NCBI GenBank assembly: GCA_027485645.1 | Contig: JAIXQR010000007.1 | Coordinates: 558,001 to 622,000, forward strand | Direction of reading: 5' to 3' | Source: a bacterium | Lineage (GTDB): Bacteria; Armatimonadota; Fimbriimonadia; Fimbriimonadales; Fimbriimonadaceae | Length of the DNA: 64,000 bases | Shown here: positions 4,479 through 31,809 of the stretch, piece after piece | Position numbering within the stretch: the first letter of the stretch is position 1 | Layout: the number at the start of each line of letters is the position of its first letter | Notes under the pieces: generated by a model | What the model was told of the DNA's origin: nothing | What the model saw: the letters and a program-made list of their open reading frames with translations, nothing else | Databases searched by the model: none | Translations under genes and position numbers: made by a program

Positions 4479-5126
4479 TTATCCCTTAATTGGTAGGCCA
4501 GTTCGCGGAGAACAGGACTTCTTACCCGTCTTCTCATCGTACTGCTGGTGGTACTCCTCGGCCATCCAGAACCGCGGAGCCGGGAGGATCGTGGTCACGA
4601 TCGGCTTATCCCAGTTCTTCTGTTCTTTCTGCTTGCTGGCGAGAGCGAGCTTGCGCTGAGTTTCGGAGAACGTCCAAATCGCAGTGCGGTATTGATCTCC
4701 AATGTCTGGACCTTGGCGATCAATCAGAGTTGGGTCGTGCCAGTCCCAGAAGTTTTTCAGAAGCTTCTCGTAGCTGTTCTTCTTCGGATCGAATTCGACC
4801 AGGAGCGATTCAGCGTGCCCCGTGCTGGTGTAGCAAACCTGCTCATAAGTCGGATTTTGGGTTCGTCCACCGGCGTAACCGACCGCCGTCTGCACAACGC
4901 CGGGTTGCATTCGGAACCAATCTTCGATTCCCCAGAAGCAACCGCCGCTGAGCATGATCAGCTCGTTGCCAGGCTTCGGCTTGGGTGGCCACATTGTTCT
5001 GACCTGGCCTGGGTTTCCGCCGATCGGACGTTTCACAACCTTTTGTGAGGTCGAGGTTCCTTGCGCCATGAGGGTGACGACACCGCCAAGGCTAAGCGCA
5101 ACTACAGCTAACGCGATCCATTTCAT
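4479..5126 (-). CDS. msrA: peptide-methionine (S)-S-oxide reductase MsrA, secreted
   Basis: Repairs oxidised methionine (the S-epimer). The catalytic motif GCFWG has its Cys at residue 63. Downstream signatures include VGYAGG, YEQVCYTSTGHAE, DPT and YRTAIW, as in MsrA. Residues 1-22 (MKWIALAVVALSLGGVV...) form a signal peptide or membrane anchor, so it likely works outside the cytoplasmic membrane, unlike E. coli MsrA. Lies 18 bp upstream of the DUF418 gene on the same strand. No msrB is seen in the window. Confidence 0.93.
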   Translation of the reverse strand: MKWIALAVVALSLGGVVTLMAQGTSTSQKVVKRPIGGNPGQVRTMWPPKPKPGNELIMLSGGCFWGIEDWFRMQPGVVQTAVGYAGGRTQNPTYEQVCYTSTGHAESLLVEFDPKKNSYEKLLKNFWDWHDPTLIDRQGPDIGDQYRTAIWTFSETQRKLALASKQKEQKNWDKPIVTTILPAPRFWMAEEYHQQYDEKTGKKSCSPRTGLPIKG

Positions 5127-5213
5127 TTTCTATCCTTACTAACGCTGAGAGCCTGACCATTGTTTCTGGAATCAAGCTCCATTGCCATAAGCCACGGGGT
5201 GGCGCATGGGTTC

Positions 5214-5822
5214 CTACGGTTCTGTGGTCGCGATGAGATTTCTCATCCAAGACTGCATATCATCAAAGCTGTCGGGGCTAACCGCATGGCCCATCGGATA
5301 CTCCCGCAACACGACCGTGTCCCCGATGGCTCGGAGTTCATCGCGAATTCTCTGTCCTTCCGACACTGGGATCACCTCGTCGTACCGACCATGCTGGACC
5401 AACACTGGTGGGACGTAAGACGGAAGATGATCGGGCTCCGGCCATCGAGAGCTCAGGATCATCGCTCCGGCGTACTTCTGCGGTCGCGATAGGAGCTCTT
5501 GAAGCGCCATCATGCCGCCTTGACTGAATCCCATGAGGACGGTGTGCTCTACGGGCGGTAGGCCGTCGATTGATCGCTGTAGAAGCTCTGCGCTTTCTTT
5601 CACCTGGGCAGGATCGAACCGGATGCCGGCGTCCGTCCACTCGATATCGAACCAAGCAAACCCCTGGAGATACGGCCACGGCGCCTCAATGCTGACCCGT
5701 TCAATCTCGCCATCAAGTTCTGTGAGCAGGCCAAACAGATCGTAACGATCGCTACCGAGACCATGAAGTGCGATCACTCGCCAGTTTGCGGTTGTCTGGT
5801 CTGATTCGATTCTTAAGGGCAT
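5214..5822 (-). CDS. phospholipase/carboxylesterase family alpha/beta hydrolase
   Basis: A 202-aa hydrolase, the usual size for small carboxylesterases. The motif MGFSQGGMM places the nucleophile at Ser100, LVQHGRYDEVIP gives Asp148, and YPMGHAV gives His179. The oxyanion motif near the N-terminus is LHGLGSDR. No signal peptide. It would hydrolyse small carboxylic esters or lysophospholipids; the substrate cannot be inferred. It is divergent from the beta-lactamase-like gene, leaving only 40 bp for both promoters. Confidence 0.85.
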   Translation of the reverse strand: MPLRIESDQTTANWRVIALHGLGSDRYDLFGLLTELDGEIERVSIEAPWPYLQGFAWFDIEWTDAGIRFDPAQVKESAELLQRSIDGLPPVEHTVLMGFSQGGMMALQELLSRPQKYAGAMILSSRWPEPDHLPSYVPPVLVQHGRYDEVIPVSEGQRIRDELRAIGDTVVLREYPMGHAVSPDSFDDMQSWMRNLIATTEP

Positions 5823-5862
5823 GGAGACTTTTTACTTCGAAACGGGCAGGTAGCATCGAAAA

Positions 5863-6816
5863 ATGGCCGGGAATCCGCTTGCCTTGCTCGCAATTCTTGC
5901 TCTTTCGCCAAATCGAATGACTTCCGACACTCTTGATCAAGTTTGTAGCGATGTCGCAAAGCGGGCCGTCACCAAGTTCGCGGACGCTAAGGTGCTTACC
6001 GAAGAGATCGGAATCTCGATCGCCGTTCTCAATCGAGACTCGCTCAGCTACGAAACGGGTGGACATCGAGAGCGCGAACCGATGTACCCGGCAAGCGTTG
6101 TGAAGTTCTTCTACTTGGTTCACTTGATGGAGCAACTCGAGAAGGGAGAGGTGAAAATGTCCGACGAGCTGAAGCGGGGCACGACCGACATGATCAAGGA
6201 CTCAAGCAACGACGCGACGGGCTACATCCTTGATGTGCTCACGAAAACCACCGGCGGGGCCGAATTGGAAGGTCCAGAGCTCAAGGCGTGGATGGATAAG
6301 CGTAATGCCGTGAACCGATGGTATTCCTCGCTCGGCTTTAGCGGAATCAACGTGAACCAAAAAACTTGGAACGAGGGTCCTTACGGTCGGGAGCGACAAG
6401 GTTATGGGCCGAAATTTGAGTTCCGCAATTCGCTCCATCCGGCGGCCTGCACTCGGCTGTTCGCGGAGGTCGCGCTTGGCAAGATTGTCACACCCGCGCG
6501 CTGCGAGGAGATGCTCACTTACCTTTCGAGGCCGATCATCGCGGACGATCCGAAGGCCGATTTTCAGAGCCGCGCATTTATTGGCAAGGCGCTCCCATCT
6601 GGCTACAAGCTTTGGTCAAAGGCAGGCTACGTAACCGCCGAGCGGCACGACACGGCCTATGTGAAAAGTCCGGACGGACGCGAGATGGTGATCTCCATCT
6701 TCACGAAGAATCACACCCAAACCCCTGACCTGATTCCCTTCATTGCTTCCGAAATATTGAAAGACTTGAAGATGCCAGCCGTAGAAACCATTTCGGGAAC
6801 CGAAATTGAAGGCTAA
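5863..6816 (+). CDS. class A beta-lactamase-like serine hydrolase
   Basis: A 317-aa member of the beta-lactamase 2 (PF13354) fold. The Ser-X-X-Lys motif is PASVVK (Ser78/Lys81), an S-x-N motif is in DSSNDATG (114-116), and a K-x-G motif is in LWSKAGYV (~253), matching the catalytic triplet order. A hydrophobic N-terminus ([10 protein letters not shown]) may be a signal peptide. A clear class A Glu166-type omega loop was not identified, so it may be a peptidase/transpeptidase-like hydrolase rather than a resistance enzyme. TAGCAT sits 6 nt before the ATG, hinting at leaderless expression. Confidence 0.8.
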
Positions 6817-16179: not shown

Positions 16180-16201
16180 GCCGCTTCCTTGATTTAATGC
16201 C

Positions 16202-16441
16202 ATGGATCCGAACTTTGCTAGGATGGTCCGAGAGCAAGTCGCTGGTTACCGTGCGGCCAATGAACTCCAACTTGAGGAAAAGCGGCAAAGGTCTCCGCAA
16301 GAACGCCTTAGGCTAGCGCAGGTTTTCCTCAATCGTCTAGCCGATATGGATCGATTGCCGGTCAATCACGATAAGGAAATCTATCACTCCAAGTGGCAGC
16401 TTTTGAGGGAGAAGTGGCTTGAAAGATACGCCGAATCTTGA
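16202..16441 (+). CDS. small helical protein upstream of a nucleotidyltransferase, possible antitoxin
   Basis: A 79-aa, highly charged, all-helical protein (MVREQVAGYRAANELQLEEKRQRS...). It has no membrane segment and no recognised family. Its last 23 bp overlap the TTG start of the nucleotidyltransferase, so the two are translationally coupled. The order small partner then AbiEii/MenT-like nucleotidyltransferase resembles toxin-antitoxin or abortive-infection pairs; that role is an inference from arrangement only. It starts 23 bp after the duplicated tRNA end. Confidence 0.6.
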   Translation: MDPNFARMVREQVAGYRAANELQLEEKRQRSPQERLRLAQVFLNRLADMDRLPVNHDKEIYHSKWQLLREKWLERYAES

Positions 16442-16982
16442 GGGCGCTCTTGAACGATTGGCTGCAGCGGCTAGATCCGTCGGTTTGCCGTTTGCCATCA
16501 TCGGTGGGCTCGCTGTAATTCTTCGGGGATACGATCGAGCCACTCAAGATGTGGATGCGCTCGTGATGCAGCTCGATGAGCACTTGGAAGCATTTGTTCA
16601 AGCAGCTGAGGCACACGGCCTTCATTTCCGAATCTCTAATGGCGTGGAATTTGCCAAACAAAATCGCGTGATCTTGCTCGAAGCACCGGACGGCACAACC
16701 GTTGACGTCTCGATGGGCCTTCTTCCCATAGAATGGGATGTCGTTTGGGCCGCGGAATTTCTGACGGTCGCAGCGGAGCTAACGGTGCCGGTCGTCACGC
16801 CAGAAGACCTTATTATCCTTAAACTCACGGCTGGTCGAAAAAGAGACTACGAAGACGTAACGAACCTCCTCGAGCTCTATCCAGAAATCAACCGCCCCCG
16901 TGTAGCTGCGATAGTCGAGGAGTATGCGGGCTTACTTGAAAGTCCGGAACTCGTGACTAGAATGAAACAACTTCTGGGTTAG
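16419..16982 (+). CDS. nucleotidyltransferase family protein (AbiEii/DUF6036-like)
   Basis: A 187-aa protein with the minimal nucleotidyltransferase signature: FAIIGGLAVILRGYDRATQDVD supplies the GG motif (29-30) and acidic pair D44/D46, and a third acidic position may be in TTVDVSMG (~88-92). The segment PVVTPEDLIILKLTAGRKRDYEDV is typical of DUF6036/AbiEii-type enzymes. Start is TTG at 16419 with AGGGAG about 8 nt upstream. Relatives transfer nucleotides to tRNA or proteins and often act as toxins, but some are housekeeping or orphan proteins. Partner is the overlapping 79-aa protein. Confidence 0.75.
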   Translation: MKDTPNLEGALERLAAAARSVGLPFAIIGGLAVILRGYDRATQDVDALVMQLDEHLEAFVQAAEAHGLHFRISNGVEFAKQNRVILLEAPDGTTVDVSMGLLPIEWDVVWAAEFLTVAAELTVPVVTPEDLIILKLTAGRKRDYEDVTNLLELYPEINRPRVAAIVEEYAGLLESPELVTRMKQLLG

Positions 16983-17056
16983 AGTGCAAACGAGGACTGG
17001 AATCTGAAAAGGACCATCGCAGAAAAATCCTAAAAACGCGCTCAATAAAGGCACCG

Positions 17057-17905
17057 ATGCAAATCCCCCGTAGCTTCCCTTTCAAAGCCGCGATCCTAGG
17101 CACATCGATTCTCCTCACGGCAGGAGCTTCGGCTTGCACCATCATCTTTGCCTTTCGTGGCGGGAGCGTTTTTGCGGCGGGCAATGAGGACGAGGTTATC
17201 CGGCCGCAGCTTGCTAGCCACTACGTCCGGTTTGAGCCCGCGAACAAAGAGAAAGGCACGCTCGGCTACAAAAACAACCCATTCTCCGACGAATCCGCGA
17301 TGAACGAGGCGGGGCTGTTTTATGACTTCAATGCCCTAGAGCCGCTCCAAACTCCGCGCGAGGGAAAGCCGAAGGGGAGTTTCTCCACGATCAACCAGAT
17401 GCTCGTGAAATGTAAAACGGTGGCCGAAGCGGTCAGCTTCCTCGAGTCCGTCGACCTGCCTCAAATAAGCGGAGCGCAATTGCTTATAGGAGACGCAACC
17501 GGGGCTTCCGCCATCGTCGAGCGACATGCCACCACCTGGCGAGCCAAAAACCAGGACTTCCAGATCGGGACGAATTTCCGAACCAGCACGACTCCCGAAT
17601 CCAAGATCACCTGCGAGCGATTCAAACTCTGCAACGCGACCCTGTCGGCAAAGCAATCGGTTTCCTTGATCGATATGGCGGCGATGCTCCGAAAAACCGC
17701 GGCCGCTGCACACGGCATTAGAACATGGTACTCCCTTGTTTGCGATCTCAAAAAGGGGGACGTTTATCTCAGCGTCAAAGGCGACTTCAGCAAGACCATC
17801 AAGCTAAACCTGCAAACCGAACTCAAAATGGGTTCTCGGCGCCTTGATATGGAAGAATTGGTCGCCACCGCCAAGACCCATCTCGATTGGGGAGGGCCAA
17901 AATAG
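17057..17905 (+). CDS. secreted linear amide C-N hydrolase (Ntn/choloylglycine hydrolase-like)
   Basis: A 282-aa protein with a signal peptide ending TAGASA, directly before Cys27 (CTIIFAFRGG). Processing would expose Cys as the N-terminal nucleophile, as in Ntn hydrolases of the choloylglycine/penicillin V acylase superfamily. The conserved GNEDE and a later MNEAGLFYDFNAL segment support the family. Substrate unknown: amide bonds of acylated amino compounds, lactones or peptides are possible. Stands alone. Confidence 0.75.
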   Translation: MQIPRSFPFKAAILGTSILLTAGASACTIIFAFRGGSVFAAGNEDEVIRPQLASHYVRFEPANKEKGTLGYKNNPFSDESAMNEAGLFYDFNALEPLQTPREGKPKGSFSTINQMLVKCKTVAEAVSFLESVDLPQISGAQLLIGDATGASAIVERHATTWRAKNQDFQIGTNFRTSTTPESKITCERFKLCNATLSAKQSVSLIDMAAMLRKTAAAAHGIRTWYSLVCDLKKGDVYLSVKGDFSKTIKLNLQTELKMGSRRLDMEELVATAKTHLDWGGPK

Positions 17906-18209
17906 TTGAAACGCCCCTTTTTATAATAACTCTTGAGGGATCCTCAAACGATGAGAAAAATGTGCTCTGGCCACGAAGGGCGCGGCAAGTCTGGCAGTTC
18001 CGATTCGAATGAGTAGTCTGGTTCGCCCCAGATGGGCAACTCGTTGGTGCACCTATGCCTAGCACTCTAAACACATGCCTTGCCTCACGCTCATTCGCCA
18101 ACACTGAGCAGGAGCATCTTGCTCAAACATTTGCGCTGGCTATACTGGGAAAATCTGGAGCCGAAACTCTCTTTTGTAGTGCCCCAATAGTTCGACCCCA
18201 ACGACGATC
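17906..18209. other. intergenic region without recognised gene (304 bp)
   Basis: No convincing coding frame or strong hairpin was found between the Ntn hydrolase and the GH95 gene. The last ~60 bp presumably hold the GH95 promoter, but no clear -35/-10 pair or Shine-Dalgarno was identified. Confidence 0.5.
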
Positions 18210-20429
18210 ATGATGCTGCTTCCGCCCACACTCGACCCAGCGCACACGCTGCTGTTCTCTGCCCCTGCAACGCATTTCACCGAGAGCTGTGCGCTCGGCA
18301 ATGGACGATTAGGGGCGATGGTTTTCGGAGGAGTCCAGCGGGAAAGAATCGTTCTCAACGAATCAACCATGTGGTCTGGTTCCGAGCAGCCTGCTGATCG
18401 TCCCGACGCCTACAAAGCGCTCCCCGAAATTCGCAGGTTGCTTCTAGCGGGCGATAACGCAAAGGCTCAGGCGCTGTTGCAGAAGGAGTTCGTTTGCCAG
18501 GGGCCAGGCTCAGGGTTCGCCAATGGAAAGGAGATTCCGTTCGGTTGCTACCAGGTTTTCGGCGACCTGTCGCTCGATTTCGGCTCGGCCAGCTTTCAAA
18601 AGTATCAACGCACTTTAGATCTGGATAAGGCAATGGCGGTCACCGAGTACGAACAAGCCGGCGTCCGATTCCGGCGCGAGAGCTTTGTGTCTGCTCCGGC
18701 CCAAGCCATCGTTTACCGCCTGACTGCAAACCGCCGAGGCGCGATTAGCTTCGCGGCCTCACTCAGCCGTCCTGAGCGCTCTGCAGTCTCAAATGAAGGT
18801 ACTGACTTAGTCATTCGTGGAGCCCTGAGTAGCGGCGTTTCCAATCAGCTTGGTGTGCAGTACGAGGGTCGGGTTCGCGCGATCGCTTCTGGAGGCACAA
18901 CGAGATTCAAAGATGGTCAACTTTTGGTAGCAGGAGCGGACTCGGTCACCCTCATTTTCTCTGCTGGCACATCCATGTTTGACCCAGGTTTCGCATCGCG
19001 GGCGAAGCTTAACGTGGAGTCGGCGGCCAAACTGCCATACCCTTCTTTGCGGAGTGCCCATTTTCGGGATCACCAAAGCTTCTATCGCAGGAGCGCCCTC
19101 ACACTGCCCTTCGGCCCTTCTTCCCGCAAGCCGACATTTGAGCGATTGATGGCGCAGGCCGCAGGAGAGTCCGATCCTTCACTTTCGGCACTGGCTTTCC
19201 ATTTCGGCCGCTACCTCCTAATCAGCAGTTCTCGACCGAATAGCCCTCTCCCGGCCAATCTGCAAGGACTGTGGGCGGAAGAGTTGCACACCCCATGGAA
19301 TGGCGATTTCCATGTTGACATTAACCTTCAAATGAACTATTGGCCCGCCGAAACGACCGGGCTAGGCGACTGCACGAAACCGCTATTGAATTTTCTAAAG
19401 CGGCTTTCCGTGAACGGCCGAAAGACGGCGAAGGCGTACTACAACTCGACCGGTTGGGTGTCGCATGTCATCACAAACCCGTGGTTGTTCACATCGCCTG
19501 GTGAAAGTGCCGAGTGGGGATCAACTTGTACTAGCGCCGCCTGGCTTTGCCAGCACATCTGGGAGAGATTTTTATTCAGTGGCGACGTTCAAGAGCTTCG
19601 AGACATGTACCCTGTTTTCAAGGGTGCAGCTCAATTCTTGTTCGATATCCTCATTGAGGAGCCGAGGAAGGGGTGGCTCGTAACGGCACCTTCCAACTCA
19701 CCAGAAAATCTATATCGCATATCAGGCTCAAGTCCGTTAGCTACGGCAATGGGTCCCACGCACGACATGCAGATTGCACGAGAAATTTTCGGTAATACGA
19801 TCTCAGCGTCAAAAATTCTTGGCGTAGACGAAGAATTTCGGGAACGGCTCAGTGCGGCCCGCACACGCTTGGCACCGCACCAAATTGGACTGGATGGACG
19901 CCTCCAGGAGTGGCTCGAACCTTATGAAGAAGTCGAACCTCAGCACCGTCACGTTTCTCACCTCTATGGGCTATTCCCTTCGAATCAGATCACTCCCAAG
20001 GACACTCCCGATCTGGCCGTTGCCGCAAAGAAGACTCTAGAGCGCCGTGGAGATGGAGGAACTGGATGGTCGTTGGCTTGGAAAGTGAGTTTCTGGGCGA
20101 GGCTGCTTGAGGGAGATCGCGCCCATAAACTCCTCCTTAATTTCATGAATCCAACCGCAGTTAATGACTCAAAAATTCAACACGGACCCGGCGTTTATTC
20201 AAACCTCTTCTGTGCATGCCCGCCTTTTCAAATTGATGGCAACTTTGGCGTGACGGCCGGAATCGCCGAGATGCTGGTGCAGAGCCATACAGGTGAAATC
20301 CAACTCCTACCCGGCCTACCTCGAGCATGGGCAGCCAACGGCTCCGTCCGCGGACTGCGGGCCAGAGGCGGCAAGACGGTCGACATCGTTTGGAAGGACG
20401 GGAAGGTTGTTAGGAGCCGAATCCGATGA
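18210..20429 (+). CDS. glycoside hydrolase family 95 (alpha-L-fucosidase / alpha-L-galactosidase)
   Basis: A 739-aa inverting glycosidase. The N-terminal GH95 domain signature is [17 protein letters not shown] ... LNESTMWSG. The catalytic alpha/alpha barrel has [16 protein letters not shown] and [13 protein letters not shown], and the end has [14 protein letters not shown] and LLPGLP. GH95 enzymes remove alpha-1,2-linked L-fucose or L-galactose; the latter activity acts on rhamnogalacturonan II. No clear signal peptide. Its stop overlaps the ATG of the GH140-like gene (ATGA), so they form an operon. Confidence 0.92.
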
Positions 20430-21754
20430 AACTCATATCCACCATCTCTCTGGTTGCTCTCGCGTGCGTTTCTGGAGCAGAGCTCAAGCCCATTAGAGTC
20501 AGCTCGGACCGACGTAATTTTGTGACGTCCGATGGCAAGCCATTCTTTTGGCTTGCTGATACCGGCTGGACGATGACGACGCGTCTTACATTTGCTGAAA
20601 TCGACGAGTATCTGGCCGACCGCAAAGGTAAAGGGTTCAACGTAATTCAGCTCATCCTTGTGCCATGGGACGCACGCCGCAATGGAAACCTAAGTGGCGA
20701 AAGGCCGTACTTGAATGACGATATGGCTATGCCAAATCCGCGGTACTTTGACCATGTCGAGAAGGTCCTGGATCGGATTGTTAGTAAAGGGTTTTATCCC
20801 GCGGTTGTGCCCTTCTGGCTTTCTGGTCTTCCGGAACCTGGCCCCGATGAAGTTGCGAAGCACCAAGCTTATGCGCGCTACCTTGGGAAAAGGTTTGGTA
20901 AGCGCCAAATGTTCTGGTTGCTCGGTGCCGACCGTTGGCCGAACGGTTGGGCCGATGTAATTCGCGCCTTTGCCTTCGAACTCGAAAAAAGTTCCGGTCG
21001 GCCTGACCAGTTGATGACACATCATCCGGCCGGCGGCCAGACTTCCTCTCGCTTCTTCCATGAGGAGCGATGGCTCGATTTCAACATGATTCAGTCGGGG
21101 CACAATGCAGACCTTCCGGCATATCGCCTTACATTGGGAGACTACGAGAAAACCCCGATCAAACCGGTGCTGGACGGCGAGGCAGCGTACGAAAACATCA
21201 CCAATGCTCTGCTGCCATACGGACCAAATGTGCGAGTTATAAAGGACTTTGATGTTCGAAGACAGGCATATCAAAGCGTCTTTTCTGGCGCTGCTGGCCA
21301 CACTTATGGCGCTTGCGAAGTTTACGAATTCCACCACGATGGCGCTGGCAAGGCACATTGGACGATTGGCATCCATTGGCGGGAAGCGATGAAGTTGCCA
21401 GGGTCCCGGCAGATGGGGCACATGCGACGGCTCATCGAATCGCACTCTCCTTCGACTCGCACACCCGAACTCGGACTGATTGCCTCGCCTAATCCGGATT
21501 CTCCCAACGAACATCTTGCCGCGCTAAAGGACCGCGATGGAAACTGGGCAATGATCTACACGCCGACCGGTGATCGGCTTGAAATAGCCGTGAATCGCCT
21601 TCGGAAAAGACCCGTAACTGGTCGCTGGTTTGATCCAAGAAGCGGTGAATATGGGAAGCCATTCCCAGTATCTTCTGGCGATAAAGTTCCGTTTGACCCT
21701 CCGCGAACAAAGGAACAGTTGGACTGGGTGCTGGTCTTAGAAGTCAAGAAATAA
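20426..21754 (+). CDS. DUF4038 apiosidase-like glycoside hydrolase (GH140-like)
   Basis: A 442-aa protein with a signal peptide ([19 protein letters not shown]). The DUF4038 (beta/alpha)8 region starts [20 protein letters not shown] and carries FWLADTGW, a KGFNVIQ strand and [11 protein letters not shown] with a candidate catalytic Glu. A C-terminal beta-sandwich (~360-442) ends with [11 protein letters not shown], as in the putative collagen-binding tail of this family. Characterised GH140 enzymes cleave apiose from rhamnogalacturonan II. Coupled to the GH95 gene upstream, which supports a shared pectin target. Confidence 0.85.
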
Positions 21755-21795
21755 GAGACTTTTGGGCCCTCCTCACCGAAGCCCGCCTGAAAGAA

Positions 21796-22386
21796 CTAGC
21801 CGGAGGTCGAATGCCTCGACCTCACGGTCTTCCTGACCACCCACTGGCTTTTGCCAATTTGGCGGACTTGTTCGAAGCCCTCGTCCAAGAACATTCGAAC
21901 CGTGCCGCCGTGAAGAAATGAACTTGAGGTCTTCACCGCCTCCACATCATACGGGTAAGCCTCGACCGTGCCGCCGCCCAAACGGGCAATTTCTTCTAGC
22001 GCTGCCTTGAGTGCGAGCTTGGCGACTCCGCGTTTGCGATAGCCTTTGCCTACGAAGAAGCACGGCAGTCGCCAGTCTGGAACTTCGTCCAATCCAGCTT
22101 CATAGTTCTTTCGATTCTTGATGTTTGGGAGGTCTTCGGTTCTCCCAAATTGACACCAGCCAAGGGCGATTTCTCCTTCGAACACTAGCGCTGCCTGGGC
22201 GCGGCCTTCCCGAACCAGCCTCTCTTTCGTTTCACGGTATGGCTTGCATTGTCCCTTTGGCCCGGAAGGGTCTAGATGAAAAGCGATGCACCAGCAACCG
22301 CCAAAAATCCCTCCGTTGTCTTCGACCAGCTTTGCAAATGCTGGCCACGTACTTTCGTCAAGCAATCTGGTGCTGAACACGTACAC
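21796..22386 (-). CDS. GNAT family N-acetyltransferase
   Basis: A 196-aa acyltransferase. The acetyl-CoA-binding segment is CFFVGKGYRKRGVAKLALKAAL (R/Q-x-x-G-x-G/A type), preceded by the LVFEGEIALGWCQFG strand and followed by VEAYPYDV and GTVRMFLDEGFEQV. The start is GTG at 22386 or 22380. Substrate is not predictable. Opposite strand to the glycosidase operon and convergent with it. Confidence 0.85.
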   Translation of the reverse strand: MYVFSTRLLDESTWPAFAKLVEDNGGIFGGCWCIAFHLDPSGPKGQCKPYRETKERLVREGRAQAALVFEGEIALGWCQFGRTEDLPNIKNRKNYEAGLDEVPDWRLPCFFVGKGYRKRGVAKLALKAALEEIARLGGGTVEAYPYDVEAVKTSSSFLHGGTVRMFLDEGFEQVRQIGKSQWVVRKTVRSRHSTSG

Positions 22387-23279: not shown

Positions 23280-23389
23280 AGCCGAAAAGTCTGGGAGCAG
23301 GGCTTGGCTCCATTATGTCTGCTCAGATTCGTTCTTTCGCTCGAAAGATCACTGCTCCTCGCACTGCCAACCAAGGGTAAGTTCCGACT

Positions 23390-24301
23390 ATGTCGGCGTG
23401 TCTTGTGCTTTCTCTCTTGGCGGTAACTGCCCACCAGGAAACTCGCCCCATCAAGGTGTTCATCCTCTCCGGCCAATCGAACATGGTTGGGCACGGATTC
23501 TTTGAGTCAAACCCAGAGCGAAATGGAGGCAAGGGCAGCCTGCGCGAAGCGATTTCGAAAGGAAAGTTCAAGCACCTGACAGACAAGAACGGCAAGTGGC
23601 GCGAACGAGACGACGTCTGGATCCAGTACTTCGAACAAAATGGCAAGCTCACGACCGGGTACGCGGCCGGTCCAGATTGCATTGGACCGGAACTTGGCTT
23701 TGGTCATGTGGTCGGTGACGCACTGCGCGAACCCGTTCTCCTGATCAAGATTGCTTGGGGCGGGCGGAGCCTGGCGGTTGACTTTCGCCCTCCCAGCTCG
23801 AAGGGCACGGTTGGCCCAACTTACACCGAGCTGATTCAATTAGGCCGCGAAGCGATCGCACAGATCGGAACCCGTTTTCCAGCGTGGAAGGGGCGATCGG
23901 TCGAGCTCGTCGGATTTGGCTGGCACCAAGGCTGGAATGACCGCGTGGACGAGAAGTTCGTTGCGGAGTACGAGCGCAATATGGGCAACTTCATTCGAGA
24001 TATCCGAAAGGATTTGAAAGCGCCAAATCTGCCGTTCGTCATTGCCGAGACTGGCATGGGTGGCTTTCAGGAAAAGGACGAAACGGCGCTGGCGCTCATG
24101 CGCGCTCAAGCTGCGGTCGCGAGTTATCCTGAGTTCAAAGACAACGTCGCATTCGTGGGAACGCGAGCATTCTGGCGGCCCGTTGAAGAGTCGCCAAGTG
24201 ACCAAATCTACCATTGGAACAACAACGGCGAGACTTACTATCTGATTGGAGATGGAATGGGCAAAGCAATGGTCAATCTGCTGAAGAGGAAAATGCGATG
24301 A
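23390..24301 (+). CDS. sialate O-acetylesterase-like (SASA/DUF303) esterase
   Basis: A 303-aa SGNH-type esterase. Block I is FILSGQSNMVGHG with nucleophile Ser30, and the late block GFGWHQGWND supplies the catalytic His near 183. A short hydrophobic N-terminus (ACLVLSLLAVTAHQ) suggests export. Family members deacetylate sialic acid or, in pectin systems, acetylated side chains. TAAGTT lies 6 nt before the ATG without Shine-Dalgarno. The stop overlaps the next ATG (ATGA), tying it to the unknown 537-aa protein. Confidence 0.88.
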   Translation: MSACLVLSLLAVTAHQETRPIKVFILSGQSNMVGHGFFESNPERNGGKGSLREAISKGKFKHLTDKNGKWRERDDVWIQYFEQNGKLTTGYAAGPDCIGPELGFGHVVGDALREPVLLIKIAWGGRSLAVDFRPPSSKGTVGPTYTELIQLGREAIAQIGTRFPAWKGRSVELVGFGWHQGWNDRVDEKFVAEYERNMGNFIRDIRKDLKAPNLPFVIAETGMGGFQEKDETALALMRAQAAVASYPEFKDNVAFVGTRAFWRPVEESPSDQIYHWNNNGETYYLIGDGMGKAMVNLLKRKMR

Positions 24302-25911
24302 TCGGCCTTCTGAGCTTGGCCATCGGGCTTTCTACGACTCGACAGAACTCGCCGCAATTGACGGAAATGGCCGGGTATCTGATCGTGCCTCACGAACAGG
24401 TTGATCGATCATTCAATGCCGGGTTCTCAATGTACGTTTCAGCGTGGCCGCTGCTTGAAACCTATCCTGGTTCAGATTTCCAGAGCGGGCTGTTTGGCAC
24501 TTGGATGTTTCCGCAGTTTGATGGTGAAGGCCCGAAGGACCACTACACCGACATCGAAGGCGGCTTGGGGTGGTGGCGAGATACGAGATTCGCGACCAAA
24601 ACGCCAAAGTTCATCATGGGTGGAGTCACCCTCAATTTTGCGGAATGGGCAAACGGCCCGGGTGCCGGCAAAGGACGCGACTGGAAAAATCCAACCGGGC
24701 TTTACGGCGTTGCCCAACTCAGCCCTTGGGTGATCTGGCCGCCAGATGGGCTCAATCTGAAACAAGGAACCCGAGGAGAATTGTTCGGTTACGGCTATCT
24801 TCCCTTGCCTCTCACCGAACCTAAGGCTCGCACCGCGGGCAAAGCGGTCCCAACCGGCAACAACTGCTGGACGCTCTTCCTGAACACGGCGAACTTCAAG
24901 GGACCGGTTGCCTTCTTCACCCCTTACTTCTGGTCGAAGGCCTCGGCTGAGAATGAGAAACTCGCGGGTCTCTTTCTTGATAGCCGTCCCTCGGAACCGA
25001 ACAAAGCGGTCCAAATGGAGACCCAGCATATTCCTGCAATGGTCGCAAAGGACCGGAGTGGGGTGACTTACGCGCGAGTTGCGCCGACCCATTTTCCAGA
25101 CGCTTCGAGCAAAAACGCTCCGTTAATCCATCAGATCACCGCGTACTCGAAATCCGCGCTTTGGAGCCAGGTGGATCGCTGGTTTGGGGGCGACAAAGTT
25201 GTCCCAGGTGCGATTCCGGCTTCGGCGTCCAGTATCCACACTTTCAAAGGCGGTGGATATTCGACCTGGCAAATTTACCTACCTGGCGGAGACCGACAAA
25301 ACGCACCCGAAGTTGATTGGGCATCCTACGCGACACCCATCGCGATTGACCGGCATACCTATGGGATTCAATGGAAACGTGAACTCCTGAGTCAGTCTGC
25401 CGACTCCGCGGTGCTCACCCTGCCTGAGTACTACCAGCTGACCAAAATGGCAGATTCAAAGCAGCGCTGGGTGGCCGTGAAACCGAGCGAAGTGCCTACC
25501 GAGACCGGACTACTAGAAGCCAAATTCCCTGCCCCTAAACGGACCAAAGAGCCATACGTAACACCAGTCGAAGCAAGTTCGCCTTGGAAAAAACCGGGAC
25601 CTGCCGCTGGGCCGTTCAAGCGTAATCTTGGCGACGGCAGCGAGATCACCTACTATTGGTACCGTTTTGCGGATCAACCGGCATTGTTAAACGCCGACCT
25701 CTCGGCAGAGGAACGCGAAGCTTTACAGAAGCGAGTGGAGAAGATCCATCGAGGTTGGAAAAAGGACCGTAACTACTTGCCACCGAATACCACCGGAAAG
25801 CTTGCAAGCATCGATCCGGCGCTGATTGTGAAGCCGCCGAAAGCTTTCGAATACGGCTACGTGCCAATCGTAACTCGACAAGCATGGCAGGCATCGCCGA
25901 GTCGAAAATGA
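24298..25911 (+). CDS. secreted protein of unknown function coupled to SASA esterase
   Basis: A 537-aa protein with a short signal-like start (MIGLLSLAIGLSTTRQ). It is rich in Trp, Gly and Pro (GLGWWRDTRF, LSPWVIWPPDGLN, GGGYSTWQIYLPGGD, YYWYRFADQP), a composition typical of carbohydrate-binding beta structures. No enzyme family recognised. Residues ~455-500 form a charged helix pair (LSAEEREALQKRVEKIHRGWKKD). ATG 24298 overlaps the SASA stop by 4 bp, so the two are likely produced together on the same polysaccharide. Could be a new hydrolase, lyase or binding protein. Confidence 0.75.
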   Translation: MIGLLSLAIGLSTTRQNSPQLTEMAGYLIVPHEQVDRSFNAGFSMYVSAWPLLETYPGSDFQSGLFGTWMFPQFDGEGPKDHYTDIEGGLGWWRDTRFATKTPKFIMGGVTLNFAEWANGPGAGKGRDWKNPTGLYGVAQLSPWVIWPPDGLNLKQGTRGELFGYGYLPLPLTEPKARTAGKAVPTGNNCWTLFLNTANFKGPVAFFTPYFWSKASAENEKLAGLFLDSRPSEPNKAVQMETQHIPAMVAKDRSGVTYARVAPTHFPDASSKNAPLIHQITAYSKSALWSQVDRWFGGDKVVPGAIPASASSIHTFKGGGYSTWQIYLPGGDRQNAPEVDWASYATPIAIDRHTYGIQWKRELLSQSADSAVLTLPEYYQLTKMADSKQRWVAVKPSEVPTETGLLEAKFPAPKRTKEPYVTPVEASSPWKKPGPAAGPFKRNLGDGSEITYYWYRFADQPALLNADLSAEEREALQKRVEKIHRGWKKDRNYLPPNTTGKLASIDPALIVKPPKAFEYGYVPIVTRQAWQASPSRK

Positions 25912-25929
25912 GGAGCAACTCCAGAGACT

Positions 25930-26286
25930 TTAATCAGCAAGCGATCCGATTGGATCAATCGTGAGCTTGCTGATCTTGTCGTCCTGAACTTCAAAGCGAT
26001 ACTCAAACTTGTATGGGCTTCCCGGAAACTCGCCCGATACGACTACGCCAACCAGATACGTCACGCCTTGTTCCTGCACGGAGACGACTTCCGAGCTGAG
26101 TTTGTATTCGGACATTGTTCGAGTCATCCAGTCGCGAATGGACCCGATTCCTTCGAGAGTGAGGTCTTCCCCGTTGTCCAGAACGATCGCACCTTCCGAA
26201 AAACACGTGAGCGCGGCTTCGATGTCAGCGCCTTCCTTGGCGGCGAAATATGAGTCAATCGGCAGTGGAAGAAGGTGGTTTGACAT
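25930..26286 (-). CDS. SnoaL/NTF2-like protein
   Basis: A 118-aa single-domain cone fold: helix IDSYFAAKEGADIEAALTCFSEGAIVLDNG, then GIGSIRDWMTRTM, followed by four beta strands (YLVGVVVSGEFPGSPYKFEYRFEV). The ATG at 26286 gives the usual SnoaL length; upstream codons do not fit the family. NTF2-like proteins are either small enzymes (isomerases, dehydratases) or ligand binders; role unknown. Divergent from the phosphotransferase gene. Confidence 0.8.
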   Translation of the reverse strand: MSNHLLPLPIDSYFAAKEGADIEAALTCFSEGAIVLDNGEDLTLEGIGSIRDWMTRTMSEYKLSSEVVSVQEQGVTYLVGVVVSGEFPGSPYKFEYRFEVQDDKISKLTIDPIGSLAD

Positions 26287-26367
26287 ATGTCTTGAGTCCG
26301 GAGTGCTTGAAAGTAAGTATTGCAGATTCGATCTGACCTCACCGGCCCTAGAAAGAGGACAGGTAGT

Positions 26368-27339
26368 ATGCGAGCGCGGACGGCGGCAGGAATGATCAAG
26401 AGCTTCGATCAAGTGACTTCAAACTGGCTCGCAGAGGTCACCGGAAAAGATGTTGTGGAGTTCTCGATGCAAACCGAGGAGAGCAATTGGGCACGGCACG
26501 CACGCATCTTGACCACCTTTTCTGACGGAACCCGTCGCAAACTCTGGCTAAAGATCTGTTCTCACCCGCAAAGTGGCAAGTCTGAAGTGGACTACTACTT
26601 ACAGGATTACGTCAACTTGCCCGCTGCCCCGCTTGTAAATTGCTACGCTGCGGATTACGAACCGGGATGGGGCTACTGCATCCTGCTCGATGACCTTTCC
26701 GATGATTTTCAGGATCGCAAGGTCATACCACCGACGTTAGAACATGGCCTAGCCCTTGCCGAGTCTTTTGCGATAATGCACGGGCACTATTGGGAAAGCC
26801 GACCAGCAAAGGATCCAGCATCGTGGGAACCCGAATTCGCCAGGCTACAAAAAGGTGCAGCCCATATGGAAGCCGCAACCGGAAGGGCTTACGCTGAGCG
26901 GTTTGCCAAACTTCAGGTCGCCCTAACCGAGCGTTGGAGTAACCCGGCGGGCATGTCCGTGTTGCACGGCGATGTCAATCCGACCAATGTTCTGACCCCA
27001 AAGGGTCAAGACAAACCGGTCTACTTTTTGGACCGGCAACCGCTGGACGGAGTGACGCCGTACGGCGTTGCCGTGTATGACCTTGCCTATTCGATCGCAC
27101 CTTGGTGGAATCAATGCTTCCGGAAAGAGCACGAAGAGGCGATCCTGAGACACTGGCTCGAAACGCTCAATCAATCGACTTACTCTTGGGAACAGGCCCA
27201 AGCCGATTGGGCTTTGTCCGTTGAGCACTGCCTCTTGGTCCCGATTGACTGGTGCGTCGATCCCACGGAATGTGAATCAATGCGCGGACTCTGGGGATGG
27301 CAGCTTGAAAATCTTGATGGCTCCGCATCCTCCGACTGA
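26368..27339 (+). CDS. aminoglycoside/choline-type phosphotransferase family protein
   Basis: A 323-aa kinase fold. The Brenner-type catalytic loop is VLHGDVNPTNVL, followed by a DFG-like metal site in YFLDRQPLDGVTPYGVAVYDLAYSIAP. The ATP lysine is probably in RKLWLKIC, and an YCILLDDLS hinge is present. Start ATG 26368 has GAGG 9 nt upstream. Relatives phosphorylate small hydroxyl compounds, including antibiotics, choline, homoserine and steroids; substrate unknown. Some family members give aminoglycoside resistance, but nothing here supports that specifically. Confidence 0.8.
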   Translation: MRARTAAGMIKSFDQVTSNWLAEVTGKDVVEFSMQTEESNWARHARILTTFSDGTRRKLWLKICSHPQSGKSEVDYYLQDYVNLPAAPLVNCYAADYEPGWGYCILLDDLSDDFQDRKVIPPTLEHGLALAESFAIMHGHYWESRPAKDPASWEPEFARLQKGAAHMEAATGRAYAERFAKLQVALTERWSNPAGMSVLHGDVNPTNVLTPKGQDKPVYFLDRQPLDGVTPYGVAVYDLAYSIAPWWNQCFRKEHEEAILRHWLETLNQSTYSWEQAQADWALSVEHCLLVPIDWCVDPTECESMRGLWGWQLENLDGSASSD

Positions 27340-27441
27340 CTGCGCGGACAGATGATTCAGTGTCGCCATTGCACGCAGGAGCCAGTCCGTAGCCCATTCC
27401 CTTACAGCCGAAACCCGACTTTAGGCATGGTAAGATTCCGC

Positions 27442-27461
27442 TTGTCGAATCGGTTCGACAA
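27442..27461. promoter_or_regulatory. 8-bp perfect inverted repeat before the GH28 fusion gene
   Basis: TTGTCGAA (27442-27449) and TTCGACAA (27454-27461) flank TCGG. A TAAGAT -10-like hexamer is at 27431-27436, so the palindrome would cover about +1 to +20 of a transcript and sits 15 bp before the ATG. This is a typical repressor position. No regulator gene adjoins. Confidence 0.5.
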
Positions 27462-27476
27462 AGAAGCCAAACCGCT

Positions 27477-30400
27477 ATGCTCGTGCTCACCGCCACCCTT
27501 TTGATCCTGACCAACCCTGCCCTGCCGTTGCCGCAGCGGTCAACCGTCTTCTCCGTCACCAGCTTTGGGGCAGACGCGTCTGGCAAGCGGATAGCGACGC
27601 GAGCGATTCAGGGCGCGATCGATGCAGCAGAAAGAGCGGGGGGCGGTACCGTAGATTTTTCAGCTGGCACTTTTCGATCTGGAACGGTGCAGCTCAAGAG
27701 TGGTGTTACGCTCCATCTGCAGCAAGGAGCTACCCTCAAAGGGTCCTCCGACTTAAGTCATTACCAACGCGGGAACTGGCCGGCTCTCATCATTGGCACT
27801 AACTGCAAGAATATCAAGATCACGGGACTCGGAAAGATCGATGGCAACTCAGTTGAGCTCGAGAAAAGGTTCGCCGAAATCAAGACCAATCGCCGCTTCC
27901 TGGAGTACTTTCCCACGATCAGGAAGGGCGAAAAGCTTTCCTACATTGGCCCAACCGGAAACCCGACCGAACTCGATCCATACGCCATGAACGAGGCCGG
28001 CAAACTGGAGCAGCACCTCTACGGCCCCTACACTCGACCGAGCGAAATCGTGCGGCCGCAGGTCATCGAACTGCGAAAGTGTGTTGGCGTAACCATCCAA
28101 GACATCACGCTTGCCGATAGCGCGAACTGGGTGCAGACCTATCGCGACTGCGAGGAGATGAAGTTCCACCGCGTTAAGGTGCGGAGCACGAAGTATTGGA
28201 ACAACGATGGGCTAGACCTCGTGGACTGTCGGCGTGTCGAGATTTACGACTGCGACTTTGACTCGGCAGATGACGCCCTTTGCCTAAAGTCCGAACCGTT
28301 TGGGGCTGGCTGCTCCGACATCGTCGCATCCCGACTGAAGCTGGCCTCCCGAGCGAGCGCCATCAAATTTGGCACCGCCTCACATATCGGATTCAAGCGA
28401 ATCTACATTTCCGATGTCGTAGTGCGAGACACGTACCGATCTGCCGTAGCAATTCAGAGCGTGGATGGCGCCGAAATTGAGGACGTTACCGTCGAACGCT
28501 TGAAGGCGACGAATACGGGCAACGCCATCTTTGTCCGCCTGGGGCACCGTAACAAGAAGCGATCTCCAGGCTACATCCGGCGCATTCGACTGCGCGATTT
28601 TGACGTTCAGGTTCCGCCCCTCCCGAAGGACTACCATCGCGAGATTGGCGAGCCACACAATCTAATTCCGGCCTCCATTGCTGGCATTCCGGGATATCCA
28701 GTGCAAGATGTCGTTGCCGAGAACATCAAGATCTCCTATGGCGGCGGAGGGAACGCCGGTCACGCAAACGTTCCGCTAGATCGCATCAGTGAGATTCCCG
28801 AGAAGGACGGAAGCTATCCAGAGTTCTCAATGTGGGGTGAGCTACCCGCTTGGGCGCTTTACGTCCGGCATGCAGATGGCATCACCTTCAGAAACTCCAC
28901 TTTCGGTTTGCAACAGCCCGACTTTCGACCTGCATTTGTAACCGACGATGCGAGCAGGCTGACGCTGGACAAAGTATTGGTCTCGGGAAATGCCGGAGAG
29001 CTACACGGATTCTTTAAAGATTCGCCGCAAAAGACGATCAAGGACATCACGTGCACTTCCGCCACAGCTTTCAACTATAAGTCAGAAGGCGGCGACACCT
29101 CAAAGATTCAGGATTCCCGAACTCCGGCGTGGGTTGACCCGACGCAAGCCGAGGTCTATCGGGCCATCGCCCAACTTCAATCTACGCTTCGGCCGTGGGT
29201 CGTTCCAGATCAGGTGTTTTCGGTCACTCAATTTGGTGCGATTCCAGACGGGAAAACGATCTCGACCGCGGCCATCCAGCGCGCCATTGATAAGTGCCAT
29301 GAGAGTGGCGGTGGAGTTGTCCTGCTACAAGGAGGGGATTTTGTTTCCGGCACGATCGATCTCCGATCGAACGTGATGCTTGAGGTCTCGAAGGGGAGTC
29401 GATTACTGGGCAGTCTCAATCAAGCTGACTACCCTGATCGCGTACCAAAGACGTTCACCGTGATGGACTCCAACATGAATCTGCGGCAGTCGCTGATTTA
29501 TGCGGAGCGATGTAAGAACATAGGGATTCGTGGTGAAGGGCAAATCGACGGTCGAGGATCGCAAAAGAACTTTCCCGGTCCGACAACGATCACTGCCGTA
29601 ACCGGACGCCCCTTTTTGATGCGCATCATTGAATGTGAAAACGTCACCGTCACCGGGATCACGCTTAAGGACGCCGCCTCCTGGATGCAGAACTACCTTG
29701 CGTGCAGCAATGTGATCTTGGACAGCGTTACGGTTGACAGCCACGTGAATGGCAACAACGACGGAATTGATATTGATGGCTGCCGAAACGTTATTATCCG
29801 AAACTGCAAGGTCCGTTCTGGCGATGATGCTATGTGCTTCAAGGCGGCAAGCATGCGGCCAACCGAGAATGTGCTGGTTGAAAACTCAGACTTCTTTACT
29901 TACTGCAATGCCTTAAAGTTTGGTACGGATACCCAGGCCGACTTTCGTAATGTGCTCGTTCGAAATTGCCGCCTAGGCGGAATTGAGAACGGACAGGCGA
30001 CGTCTGGAATCACTTGGGCAACCGTTGATGGCGGGAACGTTCAAAACATCATCTGCGAAGACATCGACATCAGCCGCGCTGGATCACCTATCTTTATCAG
30101 ACGCGGGAGTCGGGGGCGAACCATCCCTGGAAACCCACGGCCCGTCACCGGACAGCTTGAGCGAGTGATTCTCCGCAACATCACCGGCAAAGACAACGGA
30201 GCTCGAGGCTCCATGATCTCGGGCGTCCCCGGCTTCCCGGTACGCGACTTGTTGTTATCTAACATCACGCTTGACGCCGCCGGAGATGCTCCAGAATCGG
30301 CAAGGACCATTCAGGTTCCCGAAGGCGAAACCGGCTACCCGGACGCCGGCTGGTTCGGAGTCAAGCACTTTCCCGCTTTCGGGTTCTTTTTCCGGCACGC

Positions 30401-30527
30401 CGAAGGCATCCACTTTGACCGAGTAACGGTAACGCCGCGAAAGAAGGATCCGCGGGAGTTCATGCATTTCGGCAATCAGGTGACTTCGACGCAAGCGAAC
30501 GGTCTTGGCTCGCCACCCACCAAATGA
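27477..30527 (+). CDS. tandem two-domain glycoside hydrolase family 28 (polygalacturonase-like)
   Basis: A 1016-aa secreted protein (signal: LVLTATLLILTNPALPLP) containing two complete GH28 right-handed beta-helix domains, residues ~23-575 and ~579-1016. Each opens alike (VFSVTSFGADASG / VFSVTQFGAIPDG). Each keeps catalytic Asp motifs: NNDGLDL (~242) and SADDALC (~263) in the first, NNDGIDI (~760) and SGDDAMC (~781) in the second. The GHG motif of classic polygalacturonases is not evident, so exo- or rhamnogalacturonan-type activity is possible. GH28 is normally a single domain, so this is a duplication/fusion. Confidence 0.9.
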   Translation: MLVLTATLLILTNPALPLPQRSTVFSVTSFGADASGKRIATRAIQGAIDAAERAGGGTVDFSAGTFRSGTVQLKSGVTLHLQQGATLKGSSDLSHYQRGNWPALIIGTNCKNIKITGLGKIDGNSVELEKRFAEIKTNRRFLEYFPTIRKGEKLSYIGPTGNPTELDPYAMNEAGKLEQHLYGPYTRPSEIVRPQVIELRKCVGVTIQDITLADSANWVQTYRDCEEMKFHRVKVRSTKYWNNDGLDLVDCRRVEIYDCDFDSADDALCLKSEPFGAGCSDIVASRLKLASRASAIKFGTASHIGFKRIYISDVVVRDTYRSAVAIQSVDGAEIEDVTVERLKATNTGNAIFVRLGHRNKKRSPGYIRRIRLRDFDVQVPPLPKDYHREIGEPHNLIPASIAGIPGYPVQDVVAENIKISYGGGGNAGHANVPLDRISEIPEKDGSYPEFSMWGELPAWALYVRHADGITFRNSTFGLQQPDFRPAFVTDDASRLTLDKVLVSGNAGELHGFFKDSPQKTIKDITCTSATAFNYKSEGGDTSKIQDSRTPAWVDPTQAEVYRAIAQLQSTLRPWVVPDQVFSVTQFGAIPDGKTISTAAIQRAIDKCHESGGGVVLLQGGDFVSGTIDLRSNVMLEVSKGSRLLGSLNQADYPDRVPKTFTVMDSNMNLRQSLIYAERCKNIGIRGEGQIDGRGSQKNFPGPTTITAVTGRPFLMRIIECENVTVTGITLKDAASWMQNYLACSNVILDSVTVDSHVNGNNDGIDIDGCRNVIIRNCKVRSGDDAMCFKAASMRPTENVLVENSDFFTYCNALKFGTDTQADFRNVLVRNCRLGGIENGQATSGITWATVDGGNVQNIICEDIDISRAGSPIFIRRGSRGRTIPGNPRPVTGQLERVILRNITGKDNGARGSMISGVPGFPVRDLLLSNITLDAAGDAPESARTIQVPEGETGYPDAGWFGVKHFPAFGFFFRHAEGIHFDRVTVTPRKKDPREFMHFGNQVTSTQANGLGSPPTK

Positions 30528-30728
30528 CACCTTTGTCGTAGTTGCGTCTGAACATCCTCATAACGTGGCAAAGCTCGCTGATTCACTCGGATTCACGATC
30601 CAGCTCTTGGGCTTCCGGTTTTCGATCCTAACGGACAAACCACCTCCCGGTCAACCGAAAAAGATCCCAAGGTCAGGGACCATGAAAATAGAACCAGCTT
30701 GAATACAACTTTGGATATTCAGTCGTTT

Positions 30729-31361
30729 TCACACTTTGCATGGTTTGGCCGTCCAAACAAGACCCGGCAATTCTCCAGCCGCAGCCGAGACTGTTTCTTC
30801 CCTCTCGATCTCGAACCCGGCCACCTGTAACCGCTCGCGCCAATCACTTTCTGTTCTCAGGTTGAACTCGGTCCGCGTAAACGGCATAGAGGCCAGAGTT
30901 TCGTACGGCCGAAACCCGATGACAAACCGACCACCGGGCTTGAGGACGCGGCGAATTTCGGCAAGATTTTCATGGGGATCCTGCCAGAAGTAGATCACAT
31001 TGACGGCGAGCGCGACATCGAAGGAACCCGACGGCAGGTCACCATCTGCGGATAAGATCTCAATTCGACCCTTGTCAATTTCTTTTCGAAAGGCTCGCTC
31101 GGCTAGCCGGAGCATTTCCGCAGAAGATTCAATTCCAGTGAGGTGTAGTGTTGGATCGAGGTCCAGGATTTGGCGAAAGTGACTGCCGTTGCCGAACCCA
31201 ACTTCAAGAACTTTCGCATTCGGTCCCACTTGCAAGCTGCGAATCGCATGAGAGTAAAGCGTGCGGTTGCCGCGATTCATCACCCGCCCCATCAATGGAG
31301 CGAGCCATCCGTGCGGACGCCGCAGCTGCGCCGCAATCTGAGCTGCGAGCCAAGATTTCAT
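30729..31361 (-). CDS. class I SAM-dependent methyltransferase
   Basis: A 210-aa Rossmann methyltransferase. SAM motif I is VLEVGFGNGSHF, motif II contains LTGIESSAEML, motif IV is FDVALAVNVIYFW and a post-IV motif is LKPGGRFVIGF. No targeting sequence. Substrate unknown; a small-molecule (Methyltransf_11) type. Two TAGAG-N6-CTCTA palindromes lie upstream and overlap a plausible promoter (TTACTC-N16-TAAAAG on the minus strand), so it is probably under a dedicated repressor. Confidence 0.88.
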   Translation of the reverse strand: MKSWLAAQIAAQLRRPHGWLAPLMGRVMNRGNRTLYSHAIRSLQVGPNAKVLEVGFGNGSHFRQILDLDPTLHLTGIESSAEMLRLAERAFRKEIDKGRIEILSADGDLPSGSFDVALAVNVIYFWQDPHENLAEIRRVLKPGGRFVIGFRPYETLASMPFTRTEFNLRTESDWRERLQVAGFEIEREETVSAAAGELPGLVWTAKPCKV

Positions 31362-31809
31362 GGCTTCCCCGTTGAGAAGTGAACGTGAATCAGCATTAGA
31401 GCTTTTACTCTACCAGATTTTTAGAGTAATTGCTCTATTTTGTCCAGCGTTCCTGGAGATGGCGGAAGCCGAGAAATGGTCACGACTTTGCCAAAGAATT
31501 CTCCCCTTGCCAACCCCGTGTTCACATCGAGAACGACAACCCTCACAGCAAGTTTATTGCCCTGCGCATCCGACGAACTGAGTCATGATTCGCATGATAT
31601 TTTCTGAGGGATTCCAAGCCCTGCTAGGACGTCTTTCGGAGCTCGAGCACGCAGAGCACAGACGGCTTCCGTAGCCCGACACATGTGAAAGCAAAATCGG
31701 GATTGAACTCATCAGCAGAAGCGAGATTGCCGCCGAGGCTTTCTCACTTCTGCCGCGCAACGGTCACCCAGCGAGGCGATGTTCCATCGAATCGATCACG
31801 CCAGGAACT
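31362..31809. other. intergenic region (448 bp) with operator sites at its left end
   Basis: Between the SDR stop and the methyltransferase start, both on the minus strand. Apart from the paired palindromes at 31397-31437, no convincing gene was found. Two short open frames (31360-31581 +, 31554-31760 -) lack family features and ribosome binding sites. Confidence 0.5.
31397..31437. promoter_or_regulatory. two tandem TAGAG-N6-CTCTA palindromes upstream of the methyltransferase
   Basis: TAGAG-CTTTTA-CTCTA at 31397-31412 and TAGAG-TAATTG-CTCTA at 31422-31437, centre-to-centre 25 bp. On the minus strand they cover a -35-like TTACTC (31429-31424) and a -10-like TAAAAG (31407-31402). Two equal sites spaced across a promoter suggest cooperative binding by a dimeric repressor. 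The regulator is not adjacent. Confidence 0.6.

Follow-up and report, generated by a model that had tools for sequence, protein, structure and literature searches.

A recurrent fusion partner of SASA esterases in Fimbriimonadaceae and other bacteria: a probable new protein family with a predicted glutamic peptidase-like fold

Glutamic peptidases are among the least studied catalytic classes. By predicted fold, the described system closest to the gene analyzed here is neprosin, a glutamic prolyl endopeptidase of pitcher plants with the Pfam model PF03080, which the accessible part of one article assigns to MEROPS U74 (PMC9147577). According to the available sections of a second article, the residues E188 and E297 of neprosin form the catalytic pair bridging a water, the variants E188Q and E297Q are inactive, and Q173 and W175 are also essential (PMC9343461). 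Another enzyme of this kind is the di-glutamate mucinase HC7 of Bacillus cereus (PDB 8pmu, 8pn3, 8pn5), which acts on glycoproteins and uses a CBM5, as stated in the accessible part of a further article (PMC13003899).

In this work, we analyzed a stretch of 64,000 nucleotides from a member of the Fimbriimonadaceae (hereafter the window). A sequence-only reading had picked out a 537-aa protein, here termed P0001, as a secreted protein coupled to a SASA esterase and as a candidate for a new glycan-active family. The features of the gene pair are as follows:

23390–24301, + strand: SGNH esterase of the SASA type and partner of P0001 (Pfam PF03629, E 3.1e-22)
24298–24301, + strand: ATGA stop/start overlap of the SASA and P0001 genes (read in the sequence)
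24298–25911, + strand: P0001, predicted beta-sandwich and candidate di-glutamate hydrolase, 537 aa plus stop (ORF, model, fold search)

The esterase ORF ends with the TGA within ATGA and the ATG of P0001 lies at 24298, with four bases in common, exactly as had been read before. This −4 overlap was also found in five relatives (L021, L024, L028, L029, L056) and is therefore not due to chance. The P0001 frame is open back to a TTG at 24214, but its near relatives share the ATG at 24298 as their start. The esterase resembles SGNH acetyl esterases, has 2apj and 1zmb as relatives in the PDB, and carries a serine region (G28-Q29-S30-N31) conserved in 93–95% of 57 rows. P0001 itself is basic (pI 9.2) and, in agreement with the earlier reading, rich in aromatic residues (W+Y+F 12.3%, W 3.7%), levels which are reached by 2.5% and 3.5%, respectively, of the 511 neighboring ORFs of at least 250 aa, a comparison set including some spurious ORFs. 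The proposed secretion holds in part: several homologues have normal Sec-like signals, as judged by eye without a predictor, and the fused forms described below point the same way, but the copy in the window has only a short hydrophobic start (MIGLLSLAIGLS...), by eye a weak export signal.

No match to P0001 was obtained with Pfam at E ≤ 0.1 or with NCBIfam at E ≤ 1, and hence no known CAZyme family by these profiles, while 48 members of its family gave only stray single matches to curated profiles at E ≤ 1; the earlier statement that P0001 fits no familiar carbohydrate-active family was thereby supported. The Neprosin model PF03080 matched neither P0001 (E ≤ 0.1) nor any of the 48 members (E ≤ 1), and it had 0 matches in 121 Armatimonadota genomes and 0 in 145 genomes of the phylum of locus L100. 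No control sequence matched in these two genome scans, but the model does detect known members, as it matched in two plasmid records containing them. One Novosphingobium plasmid carries a neprosin-type gene (L154:1892-3145) whose catalytic region is 44% identical to that of the plant enzyme. Searches of PDB sequences with phmmer and profiles returned only noise (3nuf, E 1.9; 8pxw, E 0.076), and tblastn against plasmids gave no P0001 relative. In the literature searched, nothing was found linking neprosin with Planctomycetes or glutamic peptidases with Armatimonadetes, and the P0001 family did not appear among the articles listed for planctomycetes and SASA.

Relatives of P0001 are numerous. 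A scan of species genomes gave at least 435 loci of the family, which was present in 23/61 genomes of relatives, in 67/251 genomes of the phylum and in 13/199 genomes of the phylum of Zavarzinella. For comparison, the best 80 of the 435 loci were used; as labelled, these come from Fimbriimonadaceae and other Armatimonadota, many from Planctomycetota and a few from Verrucomicrobiota. Among these best 80, the nearest named relative has 93% identity and belongs to a MAG filed as Chthonomonas, followed by one with 85% filed as Fimbriimonas; named hosts of close copies include Zavarzinella formosa and Limnoglobus roseus. Some of these genomes also contain members of a second, distant subfamily with about 33–41% identity. 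The genome of L100, a MAG labelled Verrucomicrobia (G268), contains seven matches to the family, two of them adjacent on contig C723. P0001 is probably a member of a new family without a Pfam model.

To describe the coupling to SASA, 101 P0001 copies outside the window (81 core, 20 distant) were classed with a purpose-built SASA profile; this set is biased to close relatives. Among the 81 core copies, nine form a single polypeptide with SASA (L041 is an example of a natural fusion). In 21 others SASA lies directly upstream on the same strand, in two directly downstream and in eight elsewhere in the locus; in the sequence available, no SASA was detected for 31, nor for a further 10 with less than 1.5 kb of upstream sequence. 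The 20 distant copies comprise one fused, one with SASA directly downstream, three with SASA elsewhere, 14 with no SASA detected and one with none but little upstream sequence. As the genome of the window has only four SASA matches, located in three reading frames, adjacency by chance is unlikely. All ten fused ORFs (nine core, one distant) have the same layout, namely a signal-like N-terminus, SASA and then the P domain without a signal of its own, which argues against simple read-through between genes whose products are exported separately. On the family tree the fusions are scattered, and their SASA parts belong to two subtypes (type A with more than 400 bits, type B below). In a quick tree with 101 rows, the fused label takes 10 changes, and starred branches force at least three fusion changes for each subtype; in this tree fusions can be lost as well as gained, and long branches are flagged. 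SASA genes were present in 23/23 genomes carrying P0001 and in 14/38 genomes without it, a count that ignores kinship, and within the family in 23/23 and 9/14 genomes, respectively. The coupling of SASA and P0001 is real and evolutionarily recurrent, one-polypeptide fusions included. In the L014 locus, a frame of 598 aa with two tandem SASA matches (G019:C34:3075-4625) lies directly upstream of a P0001 relative at 4829-6361.

For structure prediction, AlphaFold2 was run on 102 diverse members and yielded a confident model (pLDDT 93.6, pTM 0.92), while an earlier model from 19 near sequences (pLDDT 69.7) was too weak for a fold search. With the model from 102 members, Foldseek against the PDB placed neprosin on ranks 1–3 (E 7.1e-5 to 1.9e-4), followed by 4qhw (9.8e-4) and then eqolisins. 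VIA-align also gave neprosin as the best of 991 chains for the predicted model (Z 14.5/14.4/12.8/12.8; top match with rmsd 3.9 and 239/257 residues), about 4 Z units above every other family. The next matches were HC7 (Z 10.4, rmsd 4.2, 213 residues aligned), 4qhw (Z 9.8), which may be a DUF3472 protein, CPAVM1 protease and yncM (both Z 8.4), a Fibrobacter lichenase (Z 8.0), GH16 lichenases (7.5–8.0) and eqolisins (6.6–7.2), where matches under Z 8 may reflect a shared arrangement only. GH172, lyase and other families did not head this list, which is no evidence against them. In a library of viral models nothing scored under E 0.001; the top row, with E 7.6e-3 and prob 0.95, was an emaravirus protein. 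Rank 15 (E 0.11, prob 0.57) was the polyprotein of strawberry mottle virus, which has a G3 glutamic peptidase according to the accessible part of PMC9147577. The fold search proposed in the earlier reading thus put neprosin first, and the predicted fold of P0001 points to glutamic peptidases ahead of a glycan-active family.

Across 102 family sequences, E87 and E241 are the only invariant glutamates, and D150, D228 and D506 are the invariant aspartates. The codons of the two glutamates are located as follows:

24556–24558, + strand: codon for E87, an invariant residue within I-E-G-G and a candidate for the catalytic Glu that corresponds to neprosin E188 (alignment)
25018–25020, + strand: codon for E241, likewise invariant and a candidate for the second catalytic position, putatively equivalent to neprosin E297 (alignment, topology)

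Around the first glutamate, T-D-I-E87-G-G of P0001 resembles N-T-I-E188-A-G of neprosin. Further motif pairs (P0001/neprosin) were matched by eye: Y27/Y136, G-T-W69/Q-I-W175, P103-K-F/P-R-F, N-C-W191-T-L-F-L/N-W-W-L-Y-L, V-A-F-F-T-P209/V-V-G-Y-W-P and H-F-P267/H-F-P. No evident match was found for Q173 of neprosin, at whose place P0001 appears to have G67. In profile alignments with 10 gap settings, the ends of which were fixed from the structure match and favor the pairing of Y27 with Y136, E87 fell on E188 in 10/10 settings and W69 on W175 in 9/10. E241 fell on E297 in 2/10 settings, on E293 in 2/10 and on another or no residue in 6/10; by topology, it sits in the strand judged equivalent to that of E297, the structural aligner giving no residue table. 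Consequently, E87 is well placed and E241 plausible. The profile score did not stand out from that of shuffled sequences (Z 1.6 and 2.1, from 60 shuffles in each case), and hhalign gave no significant match of the family to neprosin (168 residues; E 0.41–0.49) or to three neprosin-type sequences. In one of these comparisons the best local path sets P0001 ~283–299 on the YWP-helix-WGGE stretch of neprosin, an alternative register in which E241 and E297 would not pair. At the level of sequence, homology of P0001 and neprosin is not statistically established.

Based on these data, our preferred reading, advanced tentatively, is that P0001 represents a new family of exported di-glutamate hydrolases and acts together with the SASA deacetylase, probably on a decorated glycoprotein. 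Both proteins would be made from the same transcript or as the same polypeptide, SASA would remove O-acetyl groups from the glycan and thereby unmask the substrate, and P0001 would cut it using a water activated between E87 and E241, by analogy with neprosin and HC7. The likeliest substrate would be a glycoprotein bearing acetyl and in some cases sulfate groups, cut in its peptide backbone; we prefer this to a polysaccharide, since peptidases provide the nearest folds and HC7 acts on glycoproteins. In this picture the gene coupling, the fusions, the family and its conserved residues are observed and the fold is predicted, whereas catalysis, the Glu pair, the substrate and the sequence of steps are inferred. 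Against it speak the lack of a significant sequence relationship to neprosin, the loose pairing of E241, the missing match to Q173, the basic pI, the size of P0001, the GH16 lichenase matches and the copies in which no SASA was detected. The coupling to the esterase noted in the earlier reading is supported, the fusions included, but a pectin polymer is not, given L021, the 80 loci and 7/23 genomes (see below).

The main rival, which we regard as possible but rather unlikely, retains the earlier proposal of a new glycan-active family: P0001 would found a new family of glycoside hydrolases or polysaccharide lyases, whose beta-sandwich would use E87 and E241 for acid-base catalysis on an acetylated polysaccharide once SASA has deacetylated it. 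This rival fits with a carbohydrate esterase as partner, with the richness in aromatic residues, with GH16, xyloglucan-active and lyase folds matching at Z 5–8, and with the title of 4qhw, a putative sugar hydrolase; the lead of neprosin in the fold search and the lack of an ExDxE-type motif around the invariant glutamates argue against it. The gene neighborhoods bear on it in both directions. Thirteen loci contain members of a sulfatase-type cluster, seven of them at position +1 and two at −1, and the gene lies directly downstream of the P0001 relative in L047, L051, L053, L056, L057, L062 and L087, some of which are also SASA-adjacent. This adjacency fits the preferred reading as well; sulfatases are common in these bacteria, so it is suggestive only. 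Neighbors of copies without SASA, scanned with 99/134 and 73/75 neighbors after the others had been dropped for size or as likely spurious, revealed no single recurrent partner, and among the top 25 families of the 99 neighbors there was no recurrent glycoside hydrolase. Of the refuting condition named in the earlier reading, only one half applies: the contexts of the homologues vary, but they are not known to have a non-carbohydrate role.

It is improbable that P0001 is a non-catalytic module binding carbohydrate or protein and holding the esterase on its substrate: fusion or adjacency to an enzyme, the aromatic residues and lectin and laminin-G folds at Z 5.6–7.4 would fit, but 537 aa are large for such a module, many copies occur without SASA, and the invariant acids E87, D150, D228, E241 and D506 look catalytic.

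In the window, genes for GH95, GH140-type, GH28 and GH5 proteins surround the SASA-P0001 pair, the first three within about 6 kb. The nearest relative, the sister-species locus L021, has a SASA-P0001 block 86.8% identical to window positions 23375–26034, and the next aligned block resumes at 31799. At those places L021 lacks the window stretches 16180–21827 (about 5.6 kb; GH95 and GH140-type) and 26035–31798 (about 5.8 kb; kinase, GH28, methyltransferase), which suggests that CAZyme modules were gained or lost beside a SASA-P0001 pair that itself stays constant. A 572-base match at window position 21828 lies between the two stretches, and the kinase-like gene recurs elsewhere in L021. Using blast, no relative of the GH140 and GH28 proteins of the window was found among the ORFs that a simple script, which can miss some, had predicted in the other 80 loci, and relatives of the GH95 protein were found in two of them. 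From both comparisons, the SASA-P0001 pair appears as a unit of its own, and the homologue and neighbor searches proposed before thus recovered SASA beside or fused to P0001 but no conservation of pectin genes there. In the 61 genomes, GH28 was present in 11/23 with and 5/38 without P0001, and apiosidase in 15/23 and 9/38; 7/23 related genomes with P0001 have neither. The ORF at 27477–30527 (1016 aa) was matched by GH28 (PF00295) as two stretches and is therefore probably made of two tandem GH28-type beta-helix halves. A pectin-specific enzyme of a pectin utilisation locus, for which the window neighbors and the co-occurrence across the 61 genomes speak, is very unlikely, since the co-occurrence is weaker within the family (p 0.31 for GH28 and 0.045 for apiosidase) and the neighboring enzymes are not conserved.

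Judged by the model, P0001 is more likely a new kind of di-glutamate enzyme, perhaps a protease that cleaves glycoproteins, than an enzyme acting on pectin. More speculatively, the loci could belong to a large, so far overlooked family of glutamic glycopeptidases in bacteria, in which fusion to glycan deacetylases recurs and gives a secreted two-step unmask-then-cut machine for acetylated glycoproteins; this broader view is doubtful at present, and no description of such a deacetylase-protease machine was found in the literature searched. A family with at least 435 loci and no Pfam model, spread over Planctomycetota, Armatimonadota and Verrucomicrobiota, would widen the class of glutamic peptidases. 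Its recurrent SASA fusion offers a direct substrate lead. If the preferred reading is true, enzymes for cutting acetylated glycoproteins would be gained, and under the rival a new glycoside hydrolase or lyase family.

Compared with known systems, P0001 shares with neprosin the predicted fold (239 residues, Z 14.5), the I-E-x-G motif around the first catalytic Glu and, in the profile alignment, W69 and Y27 as possible counterparts of W175 and Y136. It differs in having no Pfam match, significant sequence similarity, evident Q173 equivalent or visible pro-domain, in being twice the size of the catalytic domain with long insertions, a C-terminal part and a SASA partner, and in its pI of 9.2 against 4.3 for the acidic mature neprosin (PMC9343461, available sections). 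With HC7, P0001 has in common the predicted fold (Z 10.4) and, as a working model, two-glutamate catalysis. We know of no esterase associated with HC7. The identity of both proteins is 5%, and HC7 has a CBM5 (PMC13003899, accessible part). Eqolisins (peptidase family G1) resemble the P0001 model in the beta-sandwich and a catalytic Glu (Z about 7); they are much smaller and have a Glu/Gln instead of a Glu/Glu dyad, whereas in the P0001 family Glu (E87), not Gln, is invariant at the corresponding place, provided that the structural order holds. The SASA/SGNH carbohydrate esterases (PF03629), finally, are the recurrent neighbors and fusion partners of P0001 and not P0001 itself.
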